From Roseofilum capinflatum BLCC-M114 (GTDB lineage Bacteria > Cyanobacteriota > Cyanobacteriia > Cyanobacteriales > Desertifilaceae), in contig NZ_JAQOSO010000011.1 of the NCBI RefSeq assembly GCF_030068505.1, forward strand, positions 1 through 64,000: a stretch of 64,000 bases of DNA, written 5' to 3'. The notes beneath the pieces were generated by a model. The model saw nothing but the letters and a program-made list of their open reading frames with translations, did no database searches and had not been told where the DNA came from. Shown here in pieces: positions 6,560 to 64,000 of the stretch. A program made the position numbers and the translations under genes. Within the stretch, counting starts at the first letter, position 1. Each line of letters begins with the position of its first letter.

Positions 6560-6574
6560 GGGATAATAATTGGC

Positions 6575-7231: not shown

Positions 7232-7249
7232 GGTTGATGCTATTGAGGG

Positions 7250-7717: not shown

Positions 7718-7744
7718 AAGCCCATGGATCAAACTAAGGATGGA

Positions 7745-8095
7745 TTAAAAGAGACTGGAAAAGTCTTCTAAGGTGACATCTTTTTCAGATTGAGTCGATG
7801 CAGACTCAGGTTCTGGAGGTAGGGGGTCACTGGGAGCGATCGCTCCTTGACCGTCCCAGTCAATACAGGTAAAGAACTGGTTCACACTTAAAGTCCAGGA
7901 TAGGGTCTCGGTGCGTTTGGGGCCCTCTACACTGGCTTGCTTACTAGCCTGTTTAAATTGCTGGATCGGTTCGGGATCGTGTTCCCAATTAATTTGGCTA
8001 AAAAAGTTGTGGACTGAAGTCCGTTGCCAGGTTTGGGGTTTGCCCTGGCTTTTTTTTGCCTTGGGTTTAGATGGGGTTTGGGAACTAGGACTCAT
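7745..8095 (-). CDS. small two-repeat protein of the PAP-type operon, Slr0145-like
   Basis: A 116-residue hydrophilic protein with a lysine-rich start (about 20 residues), two copies of a short motif, W-x3-SVHNFFSQINW (about residues 23-37) and W-x2-SVNQFFTCIDW (about 67-80), a Pro/Glu/Ser-rich linker and an acidic tail ending LEDFSSLF. No enzyme motif is seen; the repeated aromatic motif looks like a protein-binding module. Its ATG overlaps the stop of the V4R gene by four bases (ATGA), so it is translationally coupled. By position it corresponds to Slr0145. Confidence 0.7.
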   Translation of the reverse strand: MSPSSQTPSKPKAKKSQGKPQTWQRTSVHNFFSQINWEHDPEPIQQFKQASKQASVEGPKRTETLSWTLSVNQFFTCIDWDGQGAIAPSDPLPPEPESASTQSEKDVTLEDFSSLF

Positions 8096-8775
8096 GCTAA
8101 CCGCTCTCCTGAACGCAACCGTTTTTCAATATCACGAGCTGTTGCTCCTTCATTGAACCAGAATGAGGCGGCATCAATGCGATCTTTACCGCCAATCAGG
8201 AATTTACAATAGGTTTCCCCCATGGAGTAGCATTGAATTTCAATACAACTGAGTTGTTTTTTGACCAATTCGGTAAAAAAGCCAGCAAATAGACCGGCAT
8301 AGATATGACAGACGGGTTTACCGACATCGCCCAGGGTACGAGCGACGGCAGAATCAAAGAGGTTGATAAACATAAAGCCTTGTTTGCGATCGCCCATATC
8401 CACTTCCCAGCGTCCCCATCCTTGGGAGGTGAAGGGCCACCACCAGGTTTCTAGTAGAAACATTAAGTTGGCTTGACGGATGCTGCGATCGAACTCTTTT
8501 TCAAACCATTTTTCAAAGAAAAAAGCATCCTTTTGTCCCCATTCCACACCAATGGTATACATGATGGCTGCCGAAGCCTCTCCGACTTCTTCTTCGAGAC
8601 CTTCCACTAACCCAATAATAAAATCTTCACTGGTGAGGACATTTTGGGCTCCATTCCAGTCTAAGACGGTTCCACGCTCTGGATCGAATTGGAAAAAATC
8701 CTGGAAGCCGTAGTGGTTGTGTTTTTTGGGATTTTTGCTATTGAGTAAATGTTGAGTTTGGGTTGCGTTTGCCAT
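8092..8775 (-). CDS. V4R (4-vinyl reductase) domain protein, Slr0144-like
   Basis: A 227-residue protein with a V4R domain in residues 90-205. Conserved features include the Trp-rich segment ETWWWPFTSQGWGRWEVD, the Cys in VCHIYAGLFAGFF and the CIEIQCYSMGETYCKFLI block, whose three cysteines could bind metal or tetrapyrrole. It fits Slr0144, the first gene of the Synechocystis PAP operon, whose loss impairs PSII. Here it is preceded by a 146-base gap with a possible internal promoter and followed by a 4-base overlap with the small two-repeat gene. The second V4R copy (6575-7231) is clearly diverged from it. Confidence 0.8.
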   Translation of the reverse strand: MANATQTQHLLNSKNPKKHNHYGFQDFFQFDPERGTVLDWNGAQNVLTSEDFIIGLVEGLEEEVGEASAAIMYTIGVEWGQKDAFFFEKWFEKEFDRSIRQANLMFLLETWWWPFTSQGWGRWEVDMGDRKQGFMFINLFDSAVARTLGDVGKPVCHIYAGLFAGFFTELVKKQLSCIEIQCYSMGETYCKFLIGGKDRIDAASFWFNEGATARDIEKRLRSGERLA

Positions 8776-8859
8776 AAGTGTTCAGACCTGTGACGTTGGG
8801 TGGCCCTCTAGGTAGAGGGGCTGAAGCTTTGACCCGGATGGGTTAACCTGTTCGCTTTT

Positions 8860-8890
8860 ATTGTATCGGTTACTGACGAATCCACTGCAA
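8860..8890 (-). promoter_or_regulatory. possible internal promoter upstream of the first V4R gene
   Basis: Read on the minus strand there is TTGCAG (8885-8890), a 19-base spacer and TACAAT (8860-8865). The spacer is longer than ideal. It lies in the only sizeable gap of the operon, so it may separately drive the V4R-to-kinase half. Confidence 0.35.
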
Positions 8891-8921
8891 ACTTGTAATG
8901 AAAGTCAAGCAAATTTTGCTC

Positions 8922-9419
8922 TTACAAGGGCGATTCTTCTATAGTAGAGACTTGACAGAGGATTTGCCGGTTATATTCGAGGATGGGACGCAGCAGGGCT
9001 GCTTCCTCGGTCGTTAAGAGGGATTCGACGACTTTTTGCATGATAGAGTATGTCACATCACAGCTATCTTGAGCGTCAAAGGCTCTCATGATGGTTTGAA
9101 ACCAGAGAAGCAGGCGATCGCGTAATCCTTCTCGATCGTCAATTAACAGCGCTAGAGCTGAGTGACGCAGGATACGAAGCGTATCTTGTTTCCATTTAGC
9201 GCTCAAATCCTGATCGCCCCGCATTAATACCTGGGGCGCTTTGGCGCGAATTTGGGATTGGACTTGCTGGACAATTAGGGCTTCTGAGGTGCGAATTTTG
9301 TTATAGGTGGTTAAGCGCAAGGGAAACGACTGAATATAATCGTGAAAAAATTGCAGCTCTTCATCTGTGGCATAGCGGCCATCGGTTTCTTGATAGAGGT
9401 TTTTAGTTTGGGTCAGCAT
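8922..9419 (-). CDS. phycobilisome-like globin-fold protein (second copy)
   Basis: A 165-residue helical protein with the same pattern as the product of 7250-7717: an N-terminal helical pair, then RILRHSALALLIDDREG where phycobiliproteins have the bilin-site helix, and a C-terminal helix bundle. The position equivalent to the bilin Cys is Asp or Thr, so it is predicted to be colourless. It lies between the ferredoxin gene (41-base gap) and the V4R gene. A scaffold or PSII-assembly role is inferred from the operon. Confidence 0.7.
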   Translation of the reverse strand: MLTQTKNLYQETDGRYATDEELQFFHDYIQSFPLRLTTYNKIRTSEALIVQQVQSQIRAKAPQVLMRGDQDLSAKWKQDTLRILRHSALALLIDDREGLRDRLLLWFQTIMRAFDAQDSCDVTYSIMQKVVESLLTTEEAALLRPILEYNRQILCQVSTIEESPL

Positions 9420-9460
9420 AGCTTCTCAATAGTAGTCTTAAGCATCGTCTTAAGCATCGT

Positions 9461-9943
9461 CTAGGCATCTTTGGTTTGGGTTAAGTAGGCTCCAATCTCA
9501 AATTTGGTCTCTTCAAGTTGTTTGAGGGTAGATCGGGTAACCAGTTTACCCGCTTCAACGAGGACTTCCCCGGTTACTGGATGGAGCATATCTTGATCGG
9601 CTCGTCTGCCAATTAGGGCTTCAATGTCTTGTAGCGATCGCACGTACATCCCTGGAGGTAATTCTACCACTACTCCATCGGTCAGTACCCGTGATTGACA
9701 GGCGAGGCGGGAATTGGGCTTACAGGAGGTAATCACTTCTAGGGTTCGCTGCTCCCTACGGTTCATGGGGGTTAGGGAGTCCATCCCATCTTTTATATAC
9801 ACATGGCAGGTGGCACACATGCCTCGTCCTCCACATTCTTTGAGGACATCTAAATCCTTATTCATCAGGACTGATAACAGATTCCCGTTGGTTTCTACTT
9901 CCGTTTCTTGGGCGATCGGTTCAAGTCTGACTGTTTTCACCAT
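9461..9943 (-). CDS. 2Fe-2S ferredoxin of the PAP-type operon
   Basis: A 160-residue protein. The N-terminal 95 residues are a 2Fe-2S ferredoxin of the adrenodoxin-like kind: the cluster ligands are the Cys residues in CGGRGMCATC (C-x5-C-x2-C, about residues 37-46) and in LACQ (about residue 82). A roughly 65-residue C-terminal extension without cysteines follows; plain photosynthetic ferredoxins are about 97 residues. The Synechocystis operon also carries ferredoxin genes. It probably passes electrons to an operon partner or senses redox state; the partner is unknown. Confidence 0.85.
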   Translation of the reverse strand: MVKTVRLEPIAQETEVETNGNLLSVLMNKDLDVLKECGGRGMCATCHVYIKDGMDSLTPMNRREQRTLEVITSCKPNSRLACQSRVLTDGVVVELPPGMYVRSLQDIEALIGRRADQDMLHPVTGEVLVEAGKLVTRSTLKQLEETKFEIGAYLTQTKDA

Positions 9944-9966
9944 AATCTTTTAGTCTCCAAAGTTGC

Positions 9967-10791
<825 letters not shown>

Positions 10792-11062
10792 AAGTAGATG
10801 CTGATCTTTCGTCTCCTGATTATGGGGCCATGGGTCTTTAATCTATTTATTTTGGGACTTCATGTCACAACGGTAGGGGGGAGAGGTTTTGAGTTAGGAC
10901 AGTTCAAGTCTAGACATCAAGGGTATAGGTCTGCTATGGGTCAATTATGAGTTCGGTCTTAATTTTACCCAATTATACGGTCTTACGTCTTACGTTCCCT
11001 AGGGTCTTTCTTGTTCGTCAGTCCACTGAACTCTCCGATATCCCATTTTAGGTTGATCACTC
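10792..11062. promoter_or_regulatory. divergent promoter region between PAP-type operon and rbcR-like gene
   Basis: A 271-base gene-free stretch between two divergent transcription units. It must hold both promoters; LysR regulators often act from such shared regions. I found no convincing sigma70 pair or clear palindromic operator by eye. Confidence 0.5.
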
Positions 11063-12079
11063 ATGTCTGACCTTCCATTCACGTTGGATCAATTACGCAT
11101 TCTCAAGGCGATCGCCCTTGAGGGCAGCTTTAAACGAGCCGCCGACAGTCTCTATGTCTCCCAACCGGCCGTGAGTCTGCAAGTCCAGAACTTAGAGAAA
11201 CAATTAGATGTTCCCCTTTTCGATCGGGGAGGAAGACGGGCCCAACTGACGGAAGCGGGTCATTTACTGCTTCAGTATGGTGAAAAGATTCTTTCCCTGT
11301 GTCAAGAAACCTGTCGGGCGATCGAAGATTTGCAAAATCTCCAAGGAGGAACCCTCATTGTTGGAGCCTCTCAAACCACAGGAACCTATCTTTTGCCGGG
11401 GATGATTGGTGCTTTTCGGGAAAAATATCCGGATGTGGCCGTGCAACTGCATGTCCATTCTACCCGCCGAACTTGTTGGAGCGTCTCCAATGGCCAAATT
11501 GATTTAGCCATTATTGGTGGTGAAGTTCCTACGGAGCTGCAAGAAGTCTTAGAAATCTCTTCCTATGCTGAAGATGAGTTAGCCCTGATTTTAGCCCCTT
11601 CCCATCCCCTAGCTGCCCAGAGTACCATTCAAAAAGACGATCTTTATGAACTGCAATTTATTGCTCTGGATTCCCAATCCACCATTCGTAAGGTGATTGA
11701 CCAAGTTTTAACCCGGTGTGGGATTGAAACCAATCGCCTGAAAGTGGAAATGGAACTCAATTCGATTGAAGCGATTAAAAATGCGGTACAAGCCAATTTA
11801 GGAGCGGCTTTTGTTTCGGTTTCGGCCATTGAAAAGGAATTACAAATTAATCTACTCCATCGCTCTTACATTGAAGGGGTGTCTATTCGCCGTACTCTGT
11901 CGGTGATTGTCAATCCCAATCGCTATCGCTCTAAAGCGGCTGAAGCGTTTCGGACGGAAATCCTACCGGCTTTCACGACCCAAGGTAAAGTAGGGTTAAC
12001 TCCCCCCACGGATGTTGGGATCGATCTCAATGCCACTCAGGGGCCCGATCCAGAATCGTCGGCATCCTTGGAGGATTAA
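11063..12079 (+). CDS. rbcR: LysR-family transcriptional regulator, RbcR/Ycf30 type
   Basis: A 338-residue LysR regulator. The N-terminal winged HTH (residues 6-65) contains [20 protein letters not shown]. The co-inducer domain (95-305) has the RbcR-like segments [32 protein letters not shown] and [14 protein letters not shown], the last two strongly conserved in RbcR/Ycf30 and shared in part with CmpR/NtcB relatives. RbcR regulates RuBisCO genes in response to Calvin-cycle metabolites. The C-terminal 30 residues are a variable acidic tail. It is divergent from the PAP-type operon, so regulation of that operon is possible but unproven. The choice among RbcR, CmpR and NdhR is made from overall similarity as I remember it. 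Confidence 0.8.
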
Positions 12080-12121
12080 CTGGGGTCTTTTGTCAGTTCT
12101 CAATCTTTTGCCCTCTGGCCT

Positions 12122-13507
12122 ATGGATATTCATTGCACACGCCCAAAATGTCAGCGTCCGCTCAACCGATTGCCTGAGCTGGATCACCCTGAAAAACTGA
12201 AAACGACTTCCCAGAAATATTGCACTTGTTGTGGAATGCCTTTAATTTTGGCTGGCCGCTATTTACCCCAACGGTTATTGGGTCAAGGGGGGTTTGGTGC
12301 GGCTTATTTGGCGGTCGATCGCTATACGCCGACGTTGCGCTCTTGTGTGGTCAAACAGTTTCAACCAGCAGGGCAATTATCTCCCCAACAATTGGCGATC
12401 GCTCAACAGCATTTTGAGCAGGAGGCTTTGGTGCTGGAGGAGTTGGGGAACGAACATCCCCAAATTCCTCGGCTTTATGCTTTTTTTCCCTTGTTGGTTC
12501 CGTCTTCGGCTCAAGAGGCGGAAAACCAGTTTTTTTATCTGGTTCAGGAATGGATTGATGGACAAAATTTAGAGGAAGAGTTGGAATATACGGGCCCTTT
12601 TTCGGAGCAAGATATCCTGTCTCTATTGCGCCAAATTTTACCGGTTTTGCAATTTGTTCACGATCGCCATGCCATCCATCGGGATATTAAACCCTCGAAT
12701 ATTATGCGGGATAAGAAGGGGCGATTGGTGTTGCTCGATTTTGGTGCGGTTAAGCAGGTTAGCCAAGGCTCAGGCGGCCGCTCTACGGAGATCTATTCCC
12801 AAGGGTTTGCACCTCCAGAACAAATGGCGGGGGGAGAAGTTTACCCCTCTACAGATTTGTATGCTCTGGCGGTGAGTTGCTTGACTCTGTTAACCCAGAA
12901 GAGTTCTCAGGAATTATATGATTCTTATAATAATCGCTGGAAGTGGCGATCGGAAATTGATTTATCTGAACCCTTAGCTTCAGTTTTAGATAAAATGCTG
13001 GCTCTGTCTCCCTATCAACGGTTTGCCAGTGCCAATGAGGTTTTAGAGAACCTGCGTCCCCAGTCCGTTCAAGGGATGAGTCCATCAACGACTCTTCAGC
13101 CTTCTGGGTCTCCTGCGGTCGCAACTCCGCCCCCAACTCCGGCGAAACCGATGGCAATGACTTCTAGTTTTTCGACTCCAGAATTGTTGATGATCTCTAC
13201 GTTTACGGGATTTGAGTCGGTGGTTTTGGCCTTGGGGTTCACCAATCTATTGGGGGTAAATGGGATTAGTATGGGCCTTTGGGGGGCGGTGATGGGAGGA
13301 TTGGTTTATGCCCAATTTCGCCGTTGGATTGAACGGGTGGATTTGGCGATTTTAGCTGTGATTTCTTGGGGGATCTTGTTATTTGTACCCCCGCTTCGGG
13401 GAAGCCAGCCTTTAGATGTACTTTTAATTGTTCCCATTTGTGTGGGAGCGGGTTTAGGGTTGATTATGTCTGTGTTTCGGTTGATTTCTCAGAGGTTAGG
13501 ACGATGA
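12122..13507 (+). CDS. zinc-ribbon Ser/Thr protein kinase with C-terminal membrane domain
   Basis: A 461-residue Hanks-type kinase. The first 38 residues hold two Cys pairs (C5, C10, C34, C37), a zinc-ribbon-like start common in cyanobacterial SpkB-type kinases. The kinase domain follows: LGQGGFGAAY (about 53-62), Lys78, HRDIKPSN (about 180), DFGA (about 202). After a Pro/Thr-rich linker, residues 350-455 form about four hydrophobic helices, so the kinase domain would be membrane-tethered. It begins 42 bases after rbcR on the same strand and may be co-transcribed. Substrate unknown. Confidence 0.88.
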   Translation: MDIHCTRPKCQRPLNRLPELDHPEKLKTTSQKYCTCCGMPLILAGRYLPQRLLGQGGFGAAYLAVDRYTPTLRSCVVKQFQPAGQLSPQQLAIAQQHFEQEALVLEELGNEHPQIPRLYAFFPLLVPSSAQEAENQFFYLVQEWIDGQNLEEELEYTGPFSEQDILSLLRQILPVLQFVHDRHAIHRDIKPSNIMRDKKGRLVLLDFGAVKQVSQGSGGRSTEIYSQGFAPPEQMAGGEVYPSTDLYALAVSCLTLLTQKSSQELYDSYNNRWKWRSEIDLSEPLASVLDKMLALSPYQRFASANEVLENLRPQSVQGMSPSTTLQPSGSPAVATPPPTPAKPMAMTSSFSTPELLMISTFTGFESVVLALGFTNLLGVNGISMGLWGAVMGGLVYAQFRRWIERVDLAILAVISWGILLFVPPLRGSQPLDVLLIVPICVGAGLGLIMSVFRLISQRLGR

Positions 13508-13512
13508 TTGTA

Positions 13513-13562
13513 TAGGGAATAGGGAATGGGGAATGGGGAATGGGGAATGGGGAATGGGGAAT
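13513..13562. repeat. GGGGAAT heptamer tandem repeat
   Basis: About seven imperfect copies of GGGGAAT between the kinase and ureohydrolase genes. A related tract in both orientations is present around 53372-53490. Confidence 0.85.
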
Positions 13563-54284: not shown

Positions 54285-54608
54285 TTAGGTTCTCAGCAGC
54301 AGTAGAATCAGAATGCAATCAATCAGGCTCAATTCCCTGAGTAAGTCTCGATTGTTGTCGTCTTCTGGTGAATCGGACAAAGGGTCAATTTCCGCTACGC
54401 TCTCCCAGTCCACTCCTGCCACCTGACAAATCTGTTGAAAGGCCTGTCGATCGATGGGAATTCTGCGCCAAAACCGGCGTAAGGTTGCTTGGGAGGTTTG
54501 AGCATCATTCCACCAGAGAGCGGTTTGAGTTTTTGTCCATCCTTTTTGGCGAATGGCTCTGTAAACGAGGTCTAGTCCTGCTTTGGAAGCTTTGAGTGTA
54601 TCTGCCAT
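54285..54608 (-). CDS. stand-alone N-terminal HTH-type domain related to cyanobacterial STAND proteins
   Basis: A 107-residue protein starting MADTLKASKAGLDLVYRAI. The segment RQKGWTKTQTALWWNDAQTSQATLRRFWR is characteristic of a small helical domain normally placed at the N-terminus of large NB-ARC/NACHT-type cyanobacterial proteins. Here no ATPase follows; after residue 75 comes an acidic linker and a short hydrophobic end (SLIDCILILLLLRT). Either a naturally solitary adaptor or the remnant of a truncated gene. ATG 54608 is used rather than an upstream start at 54632. Confidence 0.65.
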   Translation of the reverse strand: MADTLKASKAGLDLVYRAIRQKGWTKTQTALWWNDAQTSQATLRRFWRRIPIDRQAFQQICQVAGVDWESVAEIDPLSDSPEDDNNRDLLRELSLIDCILILLLLRT

Positions 54609-54894
54609 AACCCTATTTTGCGATCGCAACAACTAGAGAAGTGCATGACCCCTCTATAGGGTTCTCAGTTTTTAACCTCGATTTTTATGCGCTTTGGGCG
54701 AAATTGTTACATAAATTTACATTCTCCCTTTACCGATTGGGGCGATCGCGGAAAGGGCACTCAAAAATGAGTCAAAGTGAGTCAGTTTTTGCGCTCCGAT
54801 CTGATACTATTATTAATTTGACTAAAAAACGATCTTAAAAAACGTAATTTATCTTAATTTTTAAGACATTTACTGTTAAATAAACTAAATTAGT

Positions 54895-55007: not shown

Positions 55008-55026
55008 TACAGCGCTTCGCGCTGTA
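55008..55026. repeat. TACAGCGCTTCGCGCTGTA perfect hairpin repeat
   Basis: Eight-base arms around TTC; the best-preserved member of the family also seen at 22418, 29867 and 31904. Confidence 0.85.
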
Positions 55027-55180: not shown

Positions 55181-56320
55181 TCAAAGACGCTCAACCATTT
55201 GTTTTGCGAGAGCAACAGTATTGATTTGAGTTGGAAATCGACTCATATAAGTGTTAACTAAGAAAGAAATTTGACCGTCGTATTCAAATACAATCACATC
55301 CACTACTATGGACATGAGAAGAACTTCTAGTGTAGTCATCTTTCGGACAGCCTGATTGCCTACTCCATCGAGAAATTCTAGTGTTTCTCCCGTTTTATTT
55401 ATTTTGAGTCCGTACATATTGTCAACCATATCGGGAACGTCGAACACATCGGTGGTCATCGACTCTTGCAGATTGGGTTTAATGATGGTTCCGCCAAACA
55501 AAAGATCCATTTTTAACGGTTCCATCAGTTGATAGGCAAACAGTCCTTTGATTTCAAGGTTACTCAAGAAAGACTGCAATTTTTCCAGTACATCAGTTCT
55601 GAGTGAGCTATATTCATTGGGTAAATCGGATGGGTTGACTAGGGCATTGTTGAAGGTGACAGGGGAATGAGGAGGGGTAGGTTCAGGGATCTCAAGTTGG
55701 ACTACACCTGAATCAATCCGCTCTACCATTTGTTGGGCTAAAGCAATATCATCAACGTCAGTCCTGGCTGTGGACAGATGCATATTAGCTAAGAAGTAAA
55801 CTTGCTCTTTATGCTCAAAGAAGATCGTATTCACGGTCACCGGAAATGTAAAAATTCGACTGGTCATAACGCTTCGGACTGCGCGATCGCCAACTCCATC
55901 AATATATTCTGTATGTTCTTTCGGGTTTTCTATACCGACTCCATACCAATTCTCAGCGACTTCTAAAAACACTGACCCATCCCTAGTAATTTCATCGCGC
56001 ATATCCGGTTCAATTACCGCTCCACCTAAAACTACCTCAACTTGACCCGCCAAGGGTTGTATCAGCTCACAGGTAAATAACCCTGCGATTTTCATCCCCT
56101 CCCCCTCCAAGTCAAACTCTAACTCTCTCCTCCACTCTCGTCTGAGTTCTTTAAAGCCATCGGGTAAGTCCGAGCAGTCGATCGGGGATGCTTCGGAGGT
56201 AAGGTAGGCTGTTTCACTAGCCGTCTGAGCAACAGCAATAGGGGTTACAGTGAAGCCTCCAAGCTCAAATCCTCCCAGGGTGGTTAAGCATAGTCCGAAA
56301 GCAATAAACGAGCGTTTCAT
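55181..56320 (-). CDS. exported protein with internally duplicated domain, end of the STAND-kinase-CHAT operon
   Basis: A 379-residue exported protein: signal peptide (residues 1-31, ending AVAQT), then two related modules of about 150 residues (roughly 47-205 and 228-379). Both share a start PxDLPxGF/EYxSLR, KIAGLFTCELIQPL / EIKGLFAYQLMEPL, a GxxIxP turn, EYIDGVGDRAVR / EFLDGVGNQAVR and a final ALAQQMVERI / ALAKQMVERL. No family was recognised. It lies 57 bases after the CHAT gene on the same strand, so it is probably the last gene of that operon and a periplasmic partner or substrate of the protease. Confidence 0.72.
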   Translation of the reverse strand: MKRSFIAFGLCLTTLGGFELGGFTVTPIAVAQTASETAYLTSEASPIDCSDLPDGFKELRREWRRELEFDLEGEGMKIAGLFTCELIQPLAGQVEVVLGGAVIEPDMRDEITRDGSVFLEVAENWYGVGIENPKEHTEYIDGVGDRAVRSVMTSRIFTFPVTVNTIFFEHKEQVYFLANMHLSTARTDVDDIALAQQMVERIDSGVVQLEIPEPTPPHSPVTFNNALVNPSDLPNEYSSLRTDVLEKLQSFLSNLEIKGLFAYQLMEPLKMDLLFGGTIIKPNLQESMTTDVFDVPDMVDNMYGLKINKTGETLEFLDGVGNQAVRKMTTLEVLLMSIVVDVIVFEYDGQISFLVNTYMSRFPTQINTVALAKQMVERL

Positions 56321-56377
56321 TAGGTGTTACCTCCGGTTAAAATATATAGTATCGAGTGAAGAAGAATACCAACTTTA

Positions 56378-58300
56378 TCATAACTCTCGCCAATCTCCGG
56401 TCAGTATATAAATCCCCCATTTGTAGGGAGGTTCATTCTTCTCTTTCAGTGTCAGCATGGCTTGACGCAGGGCTTGGGCTTTTGGGTTTCCTTGTTTGAG
56501 GCGATCGTAGAAGACAAGCATTAGTTCTTTAGTGAGTCTGTCCCCAACAACCCGAAGTGTTGCCAGTACCGTCGGTGCGCCCGCAAAGAGAAAGCTGCGA
56601 TTGAGTCCGACGATTTCATCGCCCACAGTTTGAGCCTCTTGCTCGTTGGAGAATTGTTCGACTTTGGTTTCACAAGCACTGAGGACAACTAGTCGCGCTG
56701 CTTCTAGGTTGAGTCTGTAGAGTTCGTGGACGTGAAGATTTCCATCCTGGCCGACAAATGGGGCTAAATGAATGGTACTCCAGAGGGGTTGTTGGCTATT
56801 AAACTGACCATGGGCTGCGAGGTGAATAATTTCAGCCGTTGGTGCATCTTGCCAAAAGCGGGTTTCTGTCGCTTGTTTGCCCGTGTAAGCGTTGCTGTTC
56901 CATTGGGCGGCGATCGCCTCTACTTCCGCCTCTGATGCCTCTAAACGAGATAAATTTCGATTTTCAATTGTGGGATTGCCCATTAAGAGTAGCTTACCCG
57001 TGCGTTGTTTCTCACTAGGCTTAGGCAACAATCGCAATACACTCGCACTAGGGAGCATAAAAATCGCATAATCATCACAGAGGTAACGACGACCATCTGT
57101 AAGCGCGGCAAAGGGTACATAATGTAGGAGTCCGTGTGGAATAATGCCGATATTTGGTGTTTTCAAGTGTTGTCGTAGGGGAGCAATCAGAATTGCATCA
57201 AGGTCTTGGAGTAATTTCGGATGGGACGATATACTATTTTTCATCTCTTGACTCATTGCCTTGATGGTCTTAGCAAGTTGCCTGAGTGGGGTAGGAATGG
57301 CGATCGCCTTCAAATCAGTAGAAGTCACCACCACGGCAAAGAGCTGGTGAATGCCCACAAAATAATTAACTAATGTCGTATCTGCACCTAAGCTTGCTTG
57401 AATTTCCTGTAAGTTCGATATCGTGACTTGGTGCAAATCTGCGATTTTAGGGCTTTGCGCTTTGAGGTCTTCAAAGCGGAACTTATATTCCTCTGCAAGC
57501 TGTTGAATTTCTTGCTCGATCTCTTCCAGCCTTGGTTGAACTCGTTGTTGTTCTTCTTCGCTGATATCAGCTTGCAATCTGAGATCCTGCCGTTCTCGAT
57601 CTAATTGTTCTAGTTTAGACTCTATCTCATACAGTCCTACCAAGATCGAACGCCTATTACCCTCGCCAAAATCGATAGAACCATGGGCTAGTTGGTCTAA
57701 AAATGCTCTGGCTTTCGACCGTTCGATATGCTCTAGCATTTTCTTAAAATCTTGGCGTTGGTGGTAAAGATCGATGAGGCGGTAATGAGCCTTATCTAAA
57801 AGCATACGTGGCCCCTCTTGTAACGTTTGGACTCGAATGCCGGCGATCGTTCTATCTGTAAACTCGACTGAGCGTTCGTAGGTCGCAATAGCGGGCAAGA
57901 TTTGAGCTTGTTTTTCATAAGCTAGACCCAATATCATCAGGGCAGTTGAACCCAAAAGAATCTGCTGGCGCTCTAAAAACCAGGTGACAGATTTTTGGAT
58001 TGTCGTTTGAGCTTGGCCAAAGTTTTGGTTACCGATATAGGCTTTGGCTAGATGAATTTGAGTCATCGCGATCGACAACTTGAGTCCTTCTTTTTCAAAA
58101 AAGGCTAAAGCTGCTTCGAGTTTGGCGATCGCGAGTTTCCATTCTTGTGCATTGAGATGAGTCTGGGCTTCCTCAATCAGTTTATTGGCTTGAAAACGAG
58201 AGGTTACAGCAAGAGCAGACTGGCGAAAACCAGAAATACTCTGCGTAAATACTGTAGCCAACAAACCTAAAACTAACAGATGAAAATGACGACGGTTCAT
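56378..58300 (-). CDS. exported TPR-CHAT protein (caspase-like protease)
   Basis: A 640-residue protein. A hydrophobic signal or anchor (about residues 8-30) is followed by TPR units (about 36-220), a coiled coil (about 215-275) and a C-terminal CHAT domain (about 330-640). The CHAT catalytic dyad is in place: His in IIHLAAHGQF (about 497) and Cys in LVVLSACET (about 543). CHAT enzymes are caspase/separase-clan cysteine proteases. Its ATG overlaps the stop of the FN3/TPR gene by four bases. The signal sequence would place the protease outside the cytoplasm. Confidence 0.88.
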   Translation of the reverse strand: MNRRHFHLLVLGLLATVFTQSISGFRQSALAVTSRFQANKLIEEAQTHLNAQEWKLAIAKLEAALAFFEKEGLKLSIAMTQIHLAKAYIGNQNFGQAQTTIQKSVTWFLERQQILLGSTALMILGLAYEKQAQILPAIATYERSVEFTDRTIAGIRVQTLQEGPRMLLDKAHYRLIDLYHQRQDFKKMLEHIERSKARAFLDQLAHGSIDFGEGNRRSILVGLYEIESKLEQLDRERQDLRLQADISEEEQQRVQPRLEEIEQEIQQLAEEYKFRFEDLKAQSPKIADLHQVTISNLQEIQASLGADTTLVNYFVGIHQLFAVVVTSTDLKAIAIPTPLRQLAKTIKAMSQEMKNSISSHPKLLQDLDAILIAPLRQHLKTPNIGIIPHGLLHYVPFAALTDGRRYLCDDYAIFMLPSASVLRLLPKPSEKQRTGKLLLMGNPTIENRNLSRLEASEAEVEAIAAQWNSNAYTGKQATETRFWQDAPTAEIIHLAAHGQFNSQQPLWSTIHLAPFVGQDGNLHVHELYRLNLEAARLVVLSACETKVEQFSNEQEAQTVGDEIVGLNRSFLFAGAPTVLATLRVVGDRLTKELMLVFYDRLKQGNPKAQALRQAMLTLKEKNEPPYKWGIYILTGDWREL

Positions 58301-59244
58301 GGCATAGAAAGTTGATCGAGTTGTTCTTGAATCTCAGTAATCCGTTGTTGGTTACCTAAAGCCTGATAAGTAGCCAGGGCAGCTTCCAACCATTCTCTAG
58401 CCTTTTCGGGAATCGCGCGATCGGCATAAATTTGTCCCAAACGAGATTGGACGGCAGCTAATTGAGCAGTTCCCGGTTCAGCAATTTCAGCCGCAGATTG
58501 ATAGCGCCAAATAGCAAACCGCCTTAAATATATCCAATTGTATAAGTCTCCCAAAAGTCGATACACTGTTTCGGTTTTGGATTCCTTGGGCAGCGCTTCT
58601 AAAACGGCAATGGCTTCCGCATTGAGATGATACCCGAAATAAAGATGGGCAAGCAGTAGGCTCCGTTCTGTTTCTGAAGTTTCTAAGTTTAAGATAGAAG
58701 CCGCTCTTTCTCGTACATGAGCTGCATCATCCGGATTAAGAACTTCAAAGCTAATGTTAGTTTCTTCGGCGGAAGAAGGCTCTGATTCTGGAGTATCGAC
58801 GACTAGAAAGTAGGTTTTGCCAGAGAGCAAGGGCGGCCCGTCATATTGCACTCGATCTTGGTTGGTTTCTTGTGTCCAAAGGGGTTCTGCATTATCGGTT
58901 TCAAAGATCTCAACAGTGTAAGTTGAAGCACTAGGAAGGGAATTCCAGCGCAGGAGCGGTTGAGGGTTAAGAATTGTGGTGCGGCGAGGGGAGATGATAT
59001 AAGGAATGAGATCGTCTTTAGGATTTTTGCCTTCCCCGCGAGGGCAATTATGTTTGAGTTGAGCGCTTGTGAAAAGTGGGGATTTTGCAGATTGAAGCTG
59101 TAGGTTGCTAAGTTTAGTCGTAGGAGCAAGACAGGCTGACTCAGCTCCCCAATTCGGTGTAGCGATCGCGCCAACAGTTATGACTAAAAGTGAAATAATA
59201 AACCAAGCTTTAGCTTTTGTTGATAAATAACTCATAACACTCAA
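58297..59244 (-). CDS. exported FN3-like/TPR protein of the STAND-kinase-CHAT operon
   Basis: A 315-residue exported protein with an N-terminal hydrophobic signal (about 12-32). Residues about 85-170 read as a fibronectin-III-like beta domain (ISPRRTTILNPQPLLRW, SASTYTVEIFE, LLSGKTYFLVVDTPESE); residues 180-315 are TPR-like helices (LGQIYADRAIPEKAREWLEAAL...). No catalytic residues were recognised. It is coupled by ATGA overlaps to the kinase upstream and the CHAT gene downstream, so it probably bridges the two as a periplasmic scaffold. Confidence 0.75.
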   Translation of the reverse strand: MSVMSYLSTKAKAWFIISLLVITVGAIATPNWGAESACLAPTTKLSNLQLQSAKSPLFTSAQLKHNCPRGEGKNPKDDLIPYIISPRRTTILNPQPLLRWNSLPSASTYTVEIFETDNAEPLWTQETNQDRVQYDGPPLLSGKTYFLVVDTPESEPSSAEETNISFEVLNPDDAAHVRERAASILNLETSETERSLLLAHLYFGYHLNAEAIAVLEALPKESKTETVYRLLGDLYNWIYLRRFAIWRYQSAAEIAEPGTAQLAAVQSRLGQIYADRAIPEKAREWLEAALATYQALGNQQRITEIQEQLDQLSMP

Positions 59245-60827
59245 TCGATACTTGAAGCAAGATCCTCAGACGCAACCAAGAATTTCTGTGCTTCTGCTTG
59301 CCATTGTTGAATTTCTGGAAAATCGCGATCGCGCTCTTGAGCATATTGGTAACATAATTTCCAGGAGTTCTGGGCCTGCTTCATCTTTTCTTCCTGTTCT
59401 GCAACTTGGGCGAGTAAACAATGAGCCGCAGGACGCTCGTCTTCCAAAGTTAGGGATTTCTGGAGTTGTTCTTTGGCTAAGGAGAGGTTACTCGTAGCTA
59501 ATCCAGCCCAAGCTAGATTTTTATGCAAGGCTGCCTGTAGGCTTTCGGTATATTGGGGGTCGTTGAAACCCTGCTGAACGCCCATTTCCAAGATAGGCAG
59601 AGCCGATCGCGGATCGTTTTGTAGTAAATAAAGGCGACCGAGATCGTTATAGGCGCGAGAAAAGGTGGCTTGAGAGGCGATCGCCTGCTGATAACGCTCC
59701 TTTGCCATTTCCATATTACCTTCCTCCTCCGCAAAAAAACCCAAGTAATAGTGAGACTCAGCTTTTTTCGGATTAAACCGAAGTGCCCAGCGAAAAAGAG
59801 ATTCCGCCCTCTGCCAATTATCATCTGCATAGGCATTATAGCCTTGCTCATTCAGCTCCGTCGCCACCCATGGTACGCCCCATAACCACATTGCTATACT
59901 CACAACCACTGCTGCACTGACTCCCTGGAATGGGCGAAACGTTTTCCACCCCACAAACAAGCCATTGCGCCACCAGGTTTGCTGTAATAAATGTTGTCGA
60001 GCGACGACGGCTGAAGCGGGACGAGATTGGGCTTCCAGGGCAGTCATTGATACGAGTAAATCCGCAAATAGAGCGGAAATTTGCACGCGATCTTGCCAGC
60101 AGATTTGATGGGTTTGCGGGTCAAATTCTAACTTGGAAATCGGTTGACCGACGAGTAAGGAAATTAGGGTTCTTCCTAATGCAAACAGATCGGATAATGC
60201 TGTGGTGAAGCCCTGCATTTGTTCGGGAGGAGAATAGCCCCGTGCATAGATTTTGGTGGTGGATTGTTCGGCTTTCTGTTTCTCCAGAAAGGTTTCCGTG
60301 ACTTCACGTATTGCACCAAAGTCAACCAACACCAATTGACCATCGGGTTTGAGCATGATGTTTCCCGGTTTGATATCTCGGTGTAATACGGGTGGGTTTT
60401 GACTGTGGAGATAGATGAGGATATCGAGCAGTTGCGTCAACCATTGTTTGGCTAGGGGTTCGGAGAGGGGTGGGTTTTTCTCTTGCCAAGTGCGGAGATC
60501 CTCTCCTGCAATATATTCCATGACTAAGCAATGATACGGTTCAAACCGGTGGGGAGAGCGGTAAAGAAAATAGCCATCGGGGTCGCCTTTGGGGATGCCG
60601 GGATGGTCTAGGGTTTGCAGAGCATGGGCTTCTCTTTTGAATAAGGTAATCACTTTTTGGCGATCGCCTTCCTCAATAAAGTTTTGCTCTGGGTCAAGCA
60701 CTTTCAGCACTTTGGGGCGATCGGATTGAGTGTCGTTTAACAGGAAAGTTTTGCCAAAGCTGCCACTTCCTAGTGATTTAACCACTCTATAGCGCTCTTG
60801 CAGGAGTAAACCCTCGATGATATCCAT
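59241..60827 (-). CDS. membrane Ser/Thr kinase with extracytoplasmic TPRs
   Basis: A 528-residue kinase. The kinase domain (residues 10-290) has LGSGSFGKTF, Lys42, HRDIKPGN and LVDFGAIREV, all intact. One membrane helix (about 303-325, VSAAVVVSIAMWLWGVPWV) separates it from a C-terminal TPR region (about 335-500) that would face the periplasm, a receptor-kinase layout. The stop overlaps the FN3/TPR gene by four bases and only six bases separate it from the STAND gene. It probably relays a signal between periplasmic partners and cytoplasmic targets. Confidence 0.9.
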   Translation of the reverse strand: MDIIEGLLLQERYRVVKSLGSGSFGKTFLLNDTQSDRPKVLKVLDPEQNFIEEGDRQKVITLFKREAHALQTLDHPGIPKGDPDGYFLYRSPHRFEPYHCLVMEYIAGEDLRTWQEKNPPLSEPLAKQWLTQLLDILIYLHSQNPPVLHRDIKPGNIMLKPDGQLVLVDFGAIREVTETFLEKQKAEQSTTKIYARGYSPPEQMQGFTTALSDLFALGRTLISLLVGQPISKLEFDPQTHQICWQDRVQISALFADLLVSMTALEAQSRPASAVVARQHLLQQTWWRNGLFVGWKTFRPFQGVSAAVVVSIAMWLWGVPWVATELNEQGYNAYADDNWQRAESLFRWALRFNPKKAESHYYLGFFAEEEGNMEMAKERYQQAIASQATFSRAYNDLGRLYLLQNDPRSALPILEMGVQQGFNDPQYTESLQAALHKNLAWAGLATSNLSLAKEQLQKSLTLEDERPAAHCLLAQVAEQEEKMKQAQNSWKLCYQYAQERDRDFPEIQQWQAEAQKFLVASEDLASSID

Positions 60828-60833
60828 TTTTAG

Positions 60834-62456
60834 CTACGGTATGACTTCACCCAACAACAACCAGTTTCTTCTAGTGTATCCGACCAGAAAATTGGCGATC
60901 GCTTGGTTGTGAGTCTCTTGCCAGATTTTTTGCCAAGCCAAGGGTGAATCAAATCCTTGGTTTAAACGAGTTTTGACCACTTTGAGAAGTTTTTGCTCGT
61001 TATTGCTTTCTGGCCAAACTAGGAGATGGGTTTGTAGCACGGAGTTGGGTTCGAGCTGTTGGGTTTGGCAGACTTGCCAGATCCCATTGATGAAGCGATC
61101 GCTCAATTGCTGACGCATATATTTAGCAATCATCGGGTCAAGTTGAAATCCTGGAGGATGGGTTTCTGGAGCGATCATCACCCAATCCAACCGTTGGAGC
61201 TGACTGAGGCTATTGCTAACTTTGGACTGCTCGACTCCACCACTGATCGCCTGAGTCAGTTCCTCTAGGGTAACGGATTGATTTTCAGCAATTGTGAGCC
61301 AATCCAGGAGCGATCGCACTTCTGGCTGAAGATGGTTAAGTTGAGCTTGCACTGCTTGAGCCACAGCATCCCCAATAAAGAGGGACGTACTCTCTAAAAA
61401 CGGCTCTAGATTGTCGTGCCATTGGTTTTTCAGCGTCATAGCAGCCATGGATAAGGCTCTAGGGTTGCCTTGATAGCGTTGGATCAGGGTTTGTCGCTCA
61501 GTGGGTGTACCTTGGATGTTGAGGCGATCGAGCAATTCCAGAGCATCACTCTCACAAAGCCCTTTCAGGCGTAATTCTCGCACGGCTTCATCATTCAACA
61601 GTTGGGCATATTCAGCCGGTTGCTGTTCAGAAATCAGCACAATACAACTTCTATGAGTTTGTTGGCTCAAGCTTTGCAACAGATGGGAATAGTCATGACT
61701 CGGTTGCTCTCCCAATTTTGCCCCACAAACAGCTTGCCAGTCATCTAGAATCAGCAAACAGGGATAATTATGCAGCCAGCGCAGTAGATCCACAGTTAAC
61801 CATTGCTCTTTAGGTTCAACATCAGGAGCAAGCAGGGGTTTGAGGCTGGCAATTAAATCTGAGAGACGAGGGAAATTGAGAAGACTTCGCCACACCACCA
61901 CTTGAAATGGAGTCTCTTTTTCCTCAGCTAAGGTGACAGCTAATTTTGCCACCAACAGACTTTTCCCAACCCCATATTTACCCCATAAAAGCAGCAGTTG
62001 TGTCTGTTCAGAAGTGAACCAGAATTTTAAGGTATCTAGTTCAGCTTTGCGTCCTAGAAAACGATCGATGTTTGGAGCTTGGATCAGATCGATTGACCTT
62101 AAAGCTGAATAAGTGGGCCAAGTGATTCCCCCTCGACGATACTGTTCTAAAAATAAAGGCACTTCACTCCAATGCTTGACTTTTCGTCCCGTCAGTTGTT
62201 CCACATAACGATAGATCTTACGTGAAAGCTCTGTCCGCACATGCTTTTCAGAAAGGTGCAGCACTTGCCCTATCTCTTTAGCATCATGACCGCAGAGTAA
62301 ACCCCGGAGGAATTCTTTCTCTTGATCCTCAAGGGTAGGAGGCTGTTTAGAGTCGTATGCTTGTTTGGCCGTGCCCAGGTCGCGATAGAGTTCCTCTAGT
62401 AACCAAACCTGACTGGCTCTGGAAAATGCGGGTGAAGGGTTTTGTTCTGTAGGCAT
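60834..62456 (-). CDS. STAND-type ATPase with N-terminal HTH
   Basis: A 540-residue cytoplasmic protein. Residues about 38-90 form an HTH-like domain (EKEFLRGLLCGHDAKEIGQV, then VRTELSRKIYRYVEQL). The NB-ARC-like ATPase follows: P-loop WGKYGVGKSLL (about 158-168), Walker B LLILDDW (about 215) and VLISEQQPAE as sensor 1. Winged-helix and helical segments occupy 380-540. There is no obvious C-terminal repeat sensor, unlike most STAND proteins. As first gene of a tightly packed operon with a kinase and CHAT protease, it may be the trigger of the pathway. Confidence 0.85.
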   Translation of the reverse strand: MPTEQNPSPAFSRASQVWLLEELYRDLGTAKQAYDSKQPPTLEDQEKEFLRGLLCGHDAKEIGQVLHLSEKHVRTELSRKIYRYVEQLTGRKVKHWSEVPLFLEQYRRGGITWPTYSALRSIDLIQAPNIDRFLGRKAELDTLKFWFTSEQTQLLLLWGKYGVGKSLLVAKLAVTLAEEKETPFQVVVWRSLLNFPRLSDLIASLKPLLAPDVEPKEQWLTVDLLRWLHNYPCLLILDDWQAVCGAKLGEQPSHDYSHLLQSLSQQTHRSCIVLISEQQPAEYAQLLNDEAVRELRLKGLCESDALELLDRLNIQGTPTERQTLIQRYQGNPRALSMAAMTLKNQWHDNLEPFLESTSLFIGDAVAQAVQAQLNHLQPEVRSLLDWLTIAENQSVTLEELTQAISGGVEQSKVSNSLSQLQRLDWVMIAPETHPPGFQLDPMIAKYMRQQLSDRFINGIWQVCQTQQLEPNSVLQTHLLVWPESNNEQKLLKVVKTRLNQGFDSPLAWQKIWQETHNQAIANFLVGYTRRNWLLLGEVIP

Positions 62457-62852: not shown

Positions 62853-64000
62853 ATGATTGATATCTTTAATCCTCTACCTGGGGATGGTTTAGAACCGGAA
62901 GAGCAAAAACTCTATACTCTTATTAATGAGTATCGCGGCCAAAATGGACTCCCTGCAATTCCTTTATCCAATGCTCTCACCTTAGTTGCTAATCGCCATG
63001 TTCAAGATGTTGCGGAAAATTTACAAATTACTATAGGCGATTCTCGTAATCCTCATTCTTGGAGTTGGGGAGCATACGATCCGGATAATGAAAGTACCTA
63101 TCCCAATATATGGGAAGCGCCTCAACGCTTGCAAACCGGTTATCCCGGTAATGGATATGAGAACTTCTTCCTAACTTCCGCTCCTTTGGCTACGGCTGAA
63201 CAGGCGTTTAATTCTTGGATTAATAGTCCCGATCACAATGCAACTATTCTCAATCAAGGGGACTGGCAACGTTTTTCCTGGGATGCTTTGGGTGTTGGGT
63301 TGTATGAGGGATACGGTGCGTTATGGTTTGGAGATGAACCCGATCCGACTGGAGCGCCGCCTATCGGTGGTTCGCCAACTCCTTCACCAACCCCGACTCC
63401 TAGTCCAAACTTAACTCCACCTTCTTTACCTCCTCTTCCTCCTTCTCCACCGACTCCACAGCCTACTCCCTTTATATTGGGTTCGGAGGCTAATGACCAA
63501 ATCATGGGAACTGCTGGTGTTGATACCATTTTGGCTCTAGGTGGAGACGATATTGCCATGGGAAATAGTGGCAATGATTATGTGAATGGGAATTTAGGGA
63601 ATGACCAAGTAGCGGGAGATTTTGGGGATGATTCCGTGCGCGGGGGACAGGGGAATGATTTTGTGACTGGGGGAGAGGGTAATGATTTTGTTTTTGGCGA
63701 TCGCCAAAACGATCAGGTTTTTGGTGATAACGGAGATGATATCCTCTATGGTGGCCAAAATGAAGATTATCTTGATGGAGGTGCGGGCAATGATATCCTC
63801 TACGGCGATCTCGGTGCTGATGTCCTAATTGGTGGTGCAGGCAATGATATTTTTGTCCTCCGTCCCGATGCCCCTGACCTAATTTTCTTCAATGATCTCG
63901 AAGATTTTATTGGCTTAACTGGAGGATTATCCTTTAATAGCTTAACCTTTAATTCTGGAATTGGAGACTTGGCAAATTCAACTTTAATTGCTCAAGCGGG
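62853..64000 (+). CDS. CAP/SCP-domain protein with RTX-like calcium repeats (partial, runs off window)
   Basis: The first 382 codons are present with no stop. Residues about 10-165 are a CAP (SCP/PR1) domain: NEYRGQNGLPAIPLSN, the His in NRHVQDVAENL, HSWSWGAYD, YENFF and AFNSWINSPDHNATIL. A Pro/Thr/Ser linker (about 170-205) follows, then RTX-type nonapeptide repeats (GGDDIAMGN, GNDYVNGN, GGAGNDILYGD and similar, about 215-335) that bind calcium in exported proteins. No N-terminal signal is seen, consistent with type I secretion through a C-terminal signal outside the window. AGGAGG lies just before ATG 62853. Confidence 0.88.
   Translation, partial: MIDIFNPLPGDGLEPEEQKLYTLINEYRGQNGLPAIPLSNALTLVANRHVQDVAENLQITIGDSRNPHSWSWGAYDPDNESTYPNIWEAPQRLQTGYPGNGYENFFLTSAPLATAEQAFNSWINSPDHNATILNQGDWQRFSWDALGVGLYEGYGALWFGDEPDPTGAPPIGGSPTPSPTPTPSPNLTPPSLPPLPPSPPTPQPTPFILGSEANDQIMGTAGVDTILALGGDDIAMGNSGNDYVNGNLGNDQVAGDFGDDSVRGGQGNDFVTGGEGNDFVFGDRQNDQVFGDNGDDILYGGQNEDYLDGGAGNDILYGDLGADVLIGGAGNDIFVLRPDAPDLIFFNDLEDFIGLTGGLSFNSLTFNSGIGDLANSTLIAQA

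Follow-up and report, generated by a model that had tools for sequence, protein, structure and literature searches.

In the AfsK/AfsR system of Streptomyces, the genes of a kinase and of a STAND protein lie near each other, AfsR carries a DNA-binding-type domain at its N-terminus, and the kinase is the likely input. According to one study, phosphorylation by AfsK is likely not itself the trigger of AfsR activation (PMC10936776, available part). HetF of Anabaena, a CHAT protein with a known role, is a cyanobacterial TPR-CHAT putative protease with a conserved active site and one predicted TM helix (PMC8406250, in the text available). Craspase of type III-E CRISPR likewise joins TPRs to a CHAT caspase-like domain. 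Kinase plus TPR has been catalogued as an architecture, cbSTKII, among cyanobacterial kinases, in a survey whose accessible text does not use the term CHAT (PMC2176072). Finally, the NTP-dependent conflict systems of multicellular bacteria are modular and combine NTPases with other parts, as far as the portion seen of their description goes.

We analyzed a window of 64,000 nucleotides, i.e., the whole stretch from Roseofilum capinflatum BLCC-M114, which holds five genes (P1 to P5), all on the minus strand, at 55181-62456. Like AfsK/AfsR, P1 and P2 are a STAND protein with a DNA-binding-type domain, here a weakly matching HTH, and a Hanks kinase encoded near it. AfsR differs in that its DNA-binding domain is SARP/BTAD, which the HTH of P1 is not (no SARP/BTAD match of P1 in Pfam), and in its TPR sensor, which P1 lacks (PMC10936776, same part); AfsK differs from P2, whose sensor arm is a TPR arm; and this operon has, in addition, P3 and a probably exported CHAT protease. 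P4 resembles HetF and Craspase in architecture, and P2 resembles cbSTKII. HetF, however, acts in heterocyst development and division, and the available text on it mentions no operon with STAND, kinase and P3 genes (PMC8406250), whereas Craspase works with Cas7-11 and crRNA (PMC11089037, PMC9935389, parts available). The whole words CHAT, periplasm and two-partner are absent from the paper on conflict systems (PMC7159879), in which no exported CHAT, two-partner-secretion (TPS) protein or TM-TPR arm was seen.

The operon and its products

The spacings given in the earlier note, 6 bases between P1 and P2 and 57 bases between P4 and P5, were confirmed together with the position and strand of the five genes. 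As for its two ATGA overlaps, that of P3/P4 is indeed ATGA, but P2 and P3 overlap by TTGA or, if the next ATG is used, are separated by 5 bases. The P-loop, the kinase residues K42/D151/D169 and the CHAT residues H493/H497/C543 are intact, as had been noted, and they are also conserved in relatives. The GC content of the operon (0.46) lies inside the range of the window, so that a foreign composition was rejected. A promoter scan was uninformative (12 sites against 11.6 in shuffles), and a terminator-like stem-loop with a T-rich tail follows P5 at 55008..55026 on the minus strand, found by a consensus scan that gives 13 such sites against 8.1 in shuffles.

P1 (60834..62456, minus strand) is a STAND NTPase of 540 aa with Walker A/B motifs, a NACHT/NB-ARC module and a winged helix (Pfam NACHT 1.1e-10; NB-ARC 9.6e-5, under that model's cut-off). 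The Walker A residues are kept in 29 of 30 STAND rows, the remaining row being gapped there. The N-terminal HTH (residues about 39-115) matches weakly in Pfam (GerE 0.0093, Sigma70_r4_2 0.008), and the STAND protein of relative L071 gives GerE at 2.4e-8; an HTH of this type occurs in just 17 of 30 STAND genes. P1 may bind DNA, judging from the weak Pfam match of the HTH. No C-terminal sensor repeats were found in P1 by Pfam, nor a TM helix, and most of its aligned relatives stop shortly past the STAND module. Searched against PDB, the P1 profile hit 11 sequences, most of them plant NLRs.

P2 (59241..60827, minus strand) consists of a Hanks Ser/Thr kinase domain (residues 13-277; Pfam Pkinase 1.3e-31), a TM helix at about 300-318 by hydropathy, and a C-terminal arm with Pfam TPR matches. 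The kinase is predicted to be cytosolic and the arm periplasmic, with one TM helix between them.

P3 (58297..59244, minus strand), the anchor of the cassette, has an export signal by hydropathy, a beta-sandwich (83-168) and then TPR-like helices (171-312); in the structure model, block pLDDT is 86-97 across residues 81-310. Our reading of the strands is that the sandwich is Ig/FN3-like, although the best PDB matches for the fold are TPR proteins. P3 has only weak TPR matches in Pfam and none in NCBIfam; among 19 members scanned, one matched Ig at 0.0039 and one matched DUF928 (PF06051) weakly at 0.0027, the latter being unmatched in P3 of the window. A FecR-like N-terminus seen by eye in long P3 relatives was dropped, since Pfam gave it no support.

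P4 (56378..58300, minus strand) is a TPR-CHAT putative caspase-like protease (Pfam CHAT 1.5e-61) with the His-Cys dyad of CHAT peptidases (PF12770), H497 and C543. C543 is kept in 76 and H497 in 75 of 77 CHAT rows; proteolysis by P4 is putative. At E 0.01, P4 matched no PDB sequence but a designed protein (0.0055).

The earlier note had ascribed export to P5 alone. By eye, P5 does have an export signal, but the starts of P3 (by hydropathy) and P4 (by eye) are export-like too. In the survey of relatives, in which export and TM calls are hydropathy only, export-like N-termini were found in 66/81 P3, 38/57 lone CHAT, 9/10 TPS-CHAT and 9/18 lone TPS genes, compared with 0/30 STAND, 0/30 kinase-arm and 140/711 other genes. 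That is, the export rule is failed by 19 of the 57 lone CHATs and by half of the lone TPS genes.

Recurrence and exchange of the heads

Among 147 genomes of the order, 54 have P3 relatives, its own included. We compared 84 loci chosen by similarity to P3 from the part of the search matches that was fetched; L072, L077 and L081-L083 were omitted as duplicates or continuations, and L052 lacks an intact P3. A head was found in all but 11 of them.

Where the head is a kinase, 28/28 loci have a STAND gene no farther than 6 kb from P3; where it is another head, 0/45 do. As background, 76 other kinases of two genomes include 2 with a STAND gene within 6 kb. This association is not phylogenetically independent. 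In a 'quick' tree of 83 of the 84 P3 rows, the starred branches force one kinase-head change (the best tree has 6), and because they allow one independent pair, we attach no significance to it.

CHAT was found within 8 kb of P3 in 68/84 loci, where about 0.08 per 17 kb is expected (613 CHATs in 20 P3-bearing genomes). Of the 73 headed loci, 13 have no CHAT labelled within 8 kb; three of these have giant TPS-CHAT genes, four end at the contig or stretch, and L048, L049, L051, L067, L068 and L105 are not otherwise explained. The strict same-strand order with a lone CHAT next is seen in only 3 of 28 kinase loci (this operon, L032 and L035). In L039, L041 and L044 a giant TPS-CHAT fusion comes next, and in the remaining kinase loci CHAT is one or two genes off, convergent, or not found. 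Thus the search for the gene order in other genomes that the earlier note proposed yielded the P1-P2-P3-CHAT grouping in many, but its exact order seldom. Ten plasmid loci were outside profile training; STAND, kinase-arm, P3, CHAT and TPS stand together in nine, and the tenth breaks off upstream of the kinase, where its record ends.

Often a TPS exoprotein is fused to CHAT or encoded next to it, and many relatives have a TPS exoprotein and ShlB, standard two-partner-secretion parts, at the locus. None was found within 8 kb of this operon, and none of the 7 TPS and 3 ShlB matches of its own genome is on its contig.

One arm type bears different heads, namely a kinase, a CHAT-like domain, an HTH or an unnamed domain. 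An arm profile trained only on the kinase genes recovers the arms that bear other heads, with E values of 9e-32 or better, and these outscore other TPR proteins except one long TPR-CHAT. The head/arm border has a TM helix in 26-29 of 30 kinase genes (the border being placed two ways), 26/26 NX, 11/13 CHAT-head and 3/3 HTH genes, against 51/316 in the control. The catalytic-residue profile did not align the putatively cytosolic CHAT heads, whose His and Cys, read from a separate alignment, are retained. A profile from STAND-linked HTHs alone detects the three HTH heads at 1.6e-11, 3.1e-8 and 1.6e-5 among 1199 ORFs; besides these it has just two untrained matches, an HTH gene standing alone in L068 (1.6e-23) and a fragmentary STAND in L067 (0.0013). 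In these three loci the HTH is directly on the arm and therefore seems to stand in for kinase plus STAND.

At the level of sequence, these results establish a conserved, predicted TM-plus-TPR arm with interchangeable, putatively cytosolic heads, followed by P3 and linked to a CHAT protein that is often export-signalled or TPS-fused. Neither PADLOC nor the literature, among the matches listed, gave a described system with this gene order; weak PADLOC matches link P4 to BovA (4.2e-4) and P1 to PDC-S27 (0.0032), and we found no publication joining 'CHAT domain', 'two-partner secretion' and 'cyanobacteria'. The recurrence of the grouping and these searches support the earlier idea of an undescribed conserved signalling system.

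Proposed mechanism

We think the chances are about even that the genes form a modular trans-envelope signalling cassette, in which the arm and P3 dock an exported protease and relay to the kinase and a STAND-HTH switch. The exported TPR-CHAT protease, or its TPS exoprotein, would dock onto the periplasmic arm and P3, and these would sense protease assembly, substrate or cleavage. Their state would set the kinase across the membrane; P2 would then phosphorylate P1, and phosphorylated P1 may oligomerize or bind DNA, in a relay arranged as in AfsK/AfsR. P5 would be an exported accessory. We infer both the relay and its direction, and prefer outside-in for the signal.

We tentatively suggest, further, that these are trans-envelope receptors of an undescribed class. 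A single periplasmic TPR arm, with swappable cytosolic outputs (kinase plus STAND, HTH, caspase-like CHAT or the unnamed domain), would report on an exported caspase-like protease or TPS-CHAT exoprotein. In Nostocales the cassette would be part of the backbone of large plasmids with the replication gene CyRepA1, and its diverged versions there may mark the identity of plasmid or cell. If this is true, diverged cassettes on CyRepA1 plasmids may let near-identical replicons coexist.

The cassette is a defined unit with a testable membrane topology, and the copy on plasmid A of Trichormus variabilis ATCC 29413 (AVA_RS26035-26055) is a named host copy for experiments. It gives a handle on what exported caspase-like proteases do, and on why one cell can hold several large plasmids whose replication proteins are near-identical. 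CHAT genes are plentiful, with 9-72 matches per genome in 20 genomes, and few CHAT genes have a known role.

Plasmid copies and other explanations

Many relatives carry versions of the cassette, and the replication gene of a large plasmid is often next to it. Among the first 52 of the 60 CyRepA1 records listed, out of 154, 33 carry P3. In 32 of these 33 Nostocales plasmid records P3 lies within 7 kb of the replication gene CyRepA1 (Rep), where 1.8 would be expected; by size, the count is 0/12 for plasmids under 79 kb and 32/40 for larger ones. The Rep-P3 comparison used 36 of 46 P3 records, the other 10 being outside the 52 CyRepA1 records, and the queries of both plasmid searches came from one Nostoc plasmid, favouring its kin.

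One rival explanation is that large plasmids use the cassette, which is on chromosomes too, for surface identity, exclusion or contact-dependent competition; the exported CHAT/TPS would act on or sense neighbour cells or incoming plasmids, and kinase and STAND would be the internal read-out. Several such plasmids may share one strain. In co-resident pairs among 20 plasmid loci (L126, L128-L146; without L110-L114), Rep proteins are 80-96% identical, whereas STAND is at most 51% (12 pairs) and kinase at most 60% identical (15 pairs), and P3 and the non-catalytic parts diverge most (five loci, L110-L114). TPS proteins serve contact-dependent inhibition elsewhere (PMC3415462, available part). However, divergence between co-resident cassettes does not exceed that between unrelated ones (kinase medians 0.54 and 0.55), and the pair L110/L111 is less diverged than other co-resident pairs (Rep 0.89, kinase domain 0.76, STAND 0.62, P3 0.47). 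That the same cassette type never co-resides is unsupported: two pairs of co-resident P3 proteins share 70-73% identity, and when P3 types were shuffled over these 20 loci the outcome was not significant, with 2 pairs seen and 1.2 expected. Moreover, no immunity gene was identified at the cassettes, adjacency to Rep may be hitch-hiking, and the copy under study lies, with no TPS nearby, on a chromosomal-looking contig. We regard this explanation as doubtful.

A second explanation is control of envelope maintenance or adhesion, in which CHAT would mature or shed TPS adhesins and kinase and STAND would tune expression, with no role in conflict. The fusion or proximity of CHAT to TPS and ShlB agrees with it, as do the exported-type neighbours of this operon (RTX and S8, by eye) and of L118, L116, L090 and L061. 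But the 8 neighbour proteins were hand-picked without a background, and the others picked were a histidine kinase (L071), a DUF3987 gene (L109) and CyRepA1 (L126). This operon and several loci (e.g., L032 and L034) have no TPS within 8 kb, and a housekeeping adhesin would not be expected at such a place on plasmids. We consider this explanation unlikely.

The earlier note had raised defence or cell death. In such a cytosolic anti-phage or abortive-infection system, STAND would sense phage and CHAT would kill the cell, and STAND, CHAT and kinase domains are each known in bacterial conflict or defence systems (PMC10907252, in the part available). The export-like N-termini of P3 and P4 and the TPS fusions of CHAT point elsewhere. 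Antiviral STANDs (Avs/bNACHT, tripartite) carry sensor repeats and an N-terminal effector, according to the same part of that source; P1 has no such C-terminal repeats and its N-terminus is of HTH type. The suggested linkage to defence islands did not appear either, since the 10 neighbours scanned in the window contain no defence gene but a generic kinase match. The PADLOC kinase models are generic here because a WD40 kinase in the window scores higher (3.5e-119) against PD-T4-6 than P2 does (3.6e-78). The phage-defence reading thus gained no support and is quite improbable; the operon, real and conserved, lacks the look of a cytosolic defence operon.

Chance neighbourhood without joint function is refuted for P1-P4 by the STAND and CHAT counts above, the only point in its favor being the orphan look of P5, which matched 1 of 147 genomes, its own.

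P5 (55181..56320, minus strand) contains two copies of a domain of about 155 aa, found by phmmer, with a weak DcrB/SciW/PsbP-like fold. That it is a lone orphan was rejected by a search of the fetched loci, which gave relatives directly after CHAT in L032 (phmmer 1.3e-4) and L104 (2e-13) and inside the P3 ORF in L067 (2e-10), the last two values coming from a profile that includes L032. P5 is thus present in 4 of 28 kinase loci and is an accessory gene of some kinase-type cassettes. A further search round gave a 366-aa gene at 1e-5 in L055, a locus without a kinase head.

Layout of the operon and predicted topology

The five genes lie on the (-) strand and span 62456 to 55181. P1 (60834..62456) encodes a STAND ATPase of 540 aa (Pfam NACHT, 1.1e-10) whose N-terminus weakly matches an HTH of the LuxR/sigma-4 type, and P2 (59241..60827) encodes a Hanks kinase (Pfam, 1.3e-31) followed by TPRs. 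P3 (58297..59244) gave nothing beyond weak TPR matches in Pfam and no match in NCBIfam, P4 (56378..58300) is a TPR-CHAT protein (Pfam CHAT, 1.5e-61), and P5 (55181..56320) had no family match in either database. The gaps of 6 bases at P1/P2 and 57 bases at P4/P5 are as the earlier note had claimed. Of its two ATGA overlaps, the one at P3/P4 is present, but at P2/P3 the overlap reads TTGA or, if P3 starts at the next ATG, there is a gap of 5 bases.

Hydropathy revealed a single hydrophobic segment in P2 (about 300-318) between the kinase and the TPRs, which predicts a cytosolic kinase and a periplasmic TPR arm. P3 begins with a hydrophobic segment by hydropathy, and the N-termini of P4 and P5 look export-like by eye. 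Among relatives, a simple hydropathy rule, as distinct from a trained signal-peptide predictor, called an export-like N-terminal segment in 66 of 81 P3 proteins, 38 of 57 lone CHAT proteins, 9 of 10 fusions of CHAT with a two-partner-secretion exoprotein (TPS), 9 of 18 lone TPS proteins, none of 30 STAND and none of 30 kinase-arm proteins, and 140 of 711 other gene products. The structure of P3 predicted from nine sequences has a beta-sandwich (83-168) followed by TPR-like helices, with block pLDDT 86-97 over residues 81-310 and below 50 over residues 1-74. The best PDB matches were TPR proteins; thus, to call the modelled sandwich Ig/FN3-like is our own reading.

We consider it most likely that the P2 arm and P3 would build a periplasmic TPR platform, to which the exported CHAT protein would bind through its TPR part. 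The kinase would read the binding or cleavage of that protein. We infer that it would then pass the signal to P1, the HTH-bearing STAND switch; the direction of this relay and the biological purpose of the cassette are inferred likewise.

An arm with interchangeable heads

Relatives were gathered with P3 as the anchor. Of 147 genomes sampled within the order, 54 had a P3 match, counting the genome of the window itself, and a P3 family profile matched 32 of 292 genomes sampled across the phylum at a threshold of 1e-10. Loci were fetched around many, not all, of the P3 matches, together with nine named loci (two from Chloroflexota); gene calls came from a simple ORF finder and labels from purpose-built profiles, and 84 P3 loci were left once duplicates were removed.

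In these loci the gene upstream of P3 shares the TM-plus-TPR arm of P2, and the cytosolic heads on the arm differ: kinase in 28 loci, an unnamed domain (NX) in 25, CHAT-like in 13, HTH in 3 and the arm alone in 4, with no head found in 11. A profile of kinase-type arms alone recovered the arms that carry other heads at E 9e-32 or better, and these outranked other TPR proteins with one exception, the long TPR-CHAT protein of locus L078. All 13 aligned CHAT-like heads keep His and Cys. By eye, NX heads (loci L033, L043, L053, L069 and others) carry an AWWW-type motif in the cytosolic domain; the three scanned (L033, L036, L043) had no Pfam match except TPRs.

The P1-type HTH is found in 17 of 30 STAND genes. 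Among 1199 ORFs, a profile of these 17 alone found the three HTH heads (1.6e-11, 3.1e-8 and 1.6e-5) as well as a solitary HTH gene in locus L068. Since the HTH is on P1 in the window and directly on the arm elsewhere, this sequence likeness points to kinase plus STAND-HTH and HTH-on-arm as alternative outputs of one receptor.

Two Chloroflexota records, L073 and L078, hold NX-arm plus P3 cassettes. CHAT follows P3 in L073; in L078 it lies upstream, and a kinase gene directly follows P3. One starred group of the P3 tree (L047, L056, L058, L063) has no head gene, and CHAT lies within 8 kb in L058 only; in L047, P3 adjoins a TPM-domain gene. P3 in this headless group serves another setting.

Association of the kinase with the STAND gene

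The cassette genes are genetically linked. Each of the 28 kinase-head loci had a STAND gene no further than 6 kb from P3, versus none of the 45 loci with another head. For this count the STAND and kinase profiles had been built from kinase-type loci, and the loci, picked by P3 similarity, are related to one another. As a control, 2 of 76 other kinases in two whole genomes had a STAND gene within this distance. The P3 tree requires 6 changes to account for the kinase head, of which the starred branches force just 1 (3 are forced for NX and 2 for the CHAT head). With just one independent pair on starred branches, a sign test of the association has therefore no power. STAND, kinase-arm, P3, CHAT and TPS occurred together in 9 of 10 plasmid loci absent from profile training; the record of the tenth starts at the kinase. 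In the 28 kinase loci the STAND gene is upstream on the same strand in 21, divergent in 6 and downstream on the opposite strand in 1. That is, it stays with the cassette despite changes of orientation.

The putatively exported partners

Of the 84 loci, 68 have a CHAT gene no more than 8 kb from P3; among the 73 loci that bear a head the count is 60. From the 613 CHATs of 20 genomes with P3 (about 128 Mb), the expected density is about 0.08 per 17 kb. Six headed loci had no labelled CHAT within 8 kb on a fetched stretch extending further. P3 is directly followed in three Microcoleus-type loci by a TPS gene longer than 10 kb that encodes CHAT at its far end, and in several loci TPS and CHAT form a single ORF (L055: Pfam TPS 5.4e-53, CHAT 6.5e-62). 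ShlB/FhaC genes, the TPS partners, adjoin TPS/CHAT in other loci. No TPS is present at the window locus, in a genome with 7 TPS, 3 ShlB and 35 CHAT matches. Among the open-access papers searched we found none joining the CHAT domain, two-partner secretion and cyanobacteria, none with CHAT domain and hemagglutinin together, and none with three of the terms CHAT domain, FecR, filamentous hemagglutinin and cyanobacteri.

The earlier note had proposed looking for the same gene order elsewhere. The strict same-strand order STAND-kinase-P3-CHAT, with CHAT next, recurs in loci L032 and L035 besides the window. If CHAT may be the first, second or third gene after P3, the same-strand order holds in eleven loci, these three among them; CHAT is convergent in eleven.

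A direct search found no relative of P5 in 146 other genomes. Directly after CHAT, locus L032 has an exported-looking relative of 217 aa (1.3e-4) and L104 one of 210 aa (2e-13); in L067 a related stretch lies inside the P3 ORF (2e-10). From these sequences P5 thus appears to be a fast-evolving accessory of some kinase loci (4 of 28). The model of one P5 repeat, built from three alignment rows, had a mean pLDDT of 68 and a weak likeness to DcrB/SciW/PsbP folds (TM-score at most 0.47 among the matches listed).

Copies on plasmids

Plasmid records with P3 relatives numbered 6 with the window P3 as query and 46 with a Nostoc P3. Nineteen Nostocales plasmid loci were fetched with both ends (L126, L128-L134, L136-L146). 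They hold, in this order, STAND, kinase, P3 and convergent CHAT, with TPS beyond, some also ShlB; L142 lacks an annotated TPS, and the CHAT gene of L145 is split by a transposase. In all 19 the cassette adjoins a CyRepA1-type replication gene (unnamed ones were identified through a CyRepA1 search), and in four a FinO-like gene too. Among the first 52 listed of 154 CyRepA1 plasmids, 33 carry P3, and in 32 of these P3 lies no more than 7 kb from CyRepA1, where 1.8 such cases would be expected; the median distance is 5 kb. By size, such proximity occurred in none of the 12 plasmids smaller than 79 kb versus 32 of the 40 larger ones.

Median identities over 15 plasmid loci were 0.75 for Rep, 0.62 for the kinase domain, 0.57 for the CHAT domain, 0.53 for the TPS domain, 0.49 for STAND, 0.48 for the arm and 0.40 for P3 (CHAT N-terminus and TPS compared on 13 of the 15). 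Co-resident Nostoc plasmids (L126, L128-L134, L137-L146) combine a strain-homogenised CyRepA1 with strongly diverged cassettes: Rep is 0.80-0.96 identical and STAND at most 0.51 in 12 pairs, and the kinase at most 0.60 in 15 pairs. A further co-resident pair, L110/L111, has diverged less, with identities of 0.89 for Rep, 0.76 for the kinase domain and 0.62 for STAND. Co-resident and unrelated cassettes diverge alike (medians for STAND 0.40 versus 0.41, for kinase 0.54 versus 0.55), two co-resident P3 pairs are 0.70 and 0.73 identical, and avoidance of the same P3 type among co-resident plasmids was not significant in a shuffle test. According to one report, large cyanobacterial plasmids coexist without incompatibility (PMC10899382); it uses neither CHAT nor kinase as a term. 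On the P3 tree the convergent-CHAT kinase loci fall into one starred group with the window outside it, so a plasmid role need not apply to the window copy.

Neighbourhood of the operon

Upstream of P1 and divergent from it lie a CAP-RTX gene and two giant paralogous RTX genes (window 62853-63998; 4408-13536 in the fetched locus L127) with S8-peptidase-like stretches by eye. On the other side are a solitary small gene, DUF1997, a WD40 kinase, PEP synthase and DPOR subunit B. The suggested linkage to a defence island was not borne out: a PADLOC scan of ten window neighbours gave generic matches only, all in the WD40 kinase. At 54285-54632 (-), a solitary gene of 115 aa matches the second type of N-terminal domain that STAND genes carry in kinase loci outside the window; this type had no Pfam match and looks like an HTH by eye, and the gene matches the STAND gene of locus L052 at 3.4e-22.
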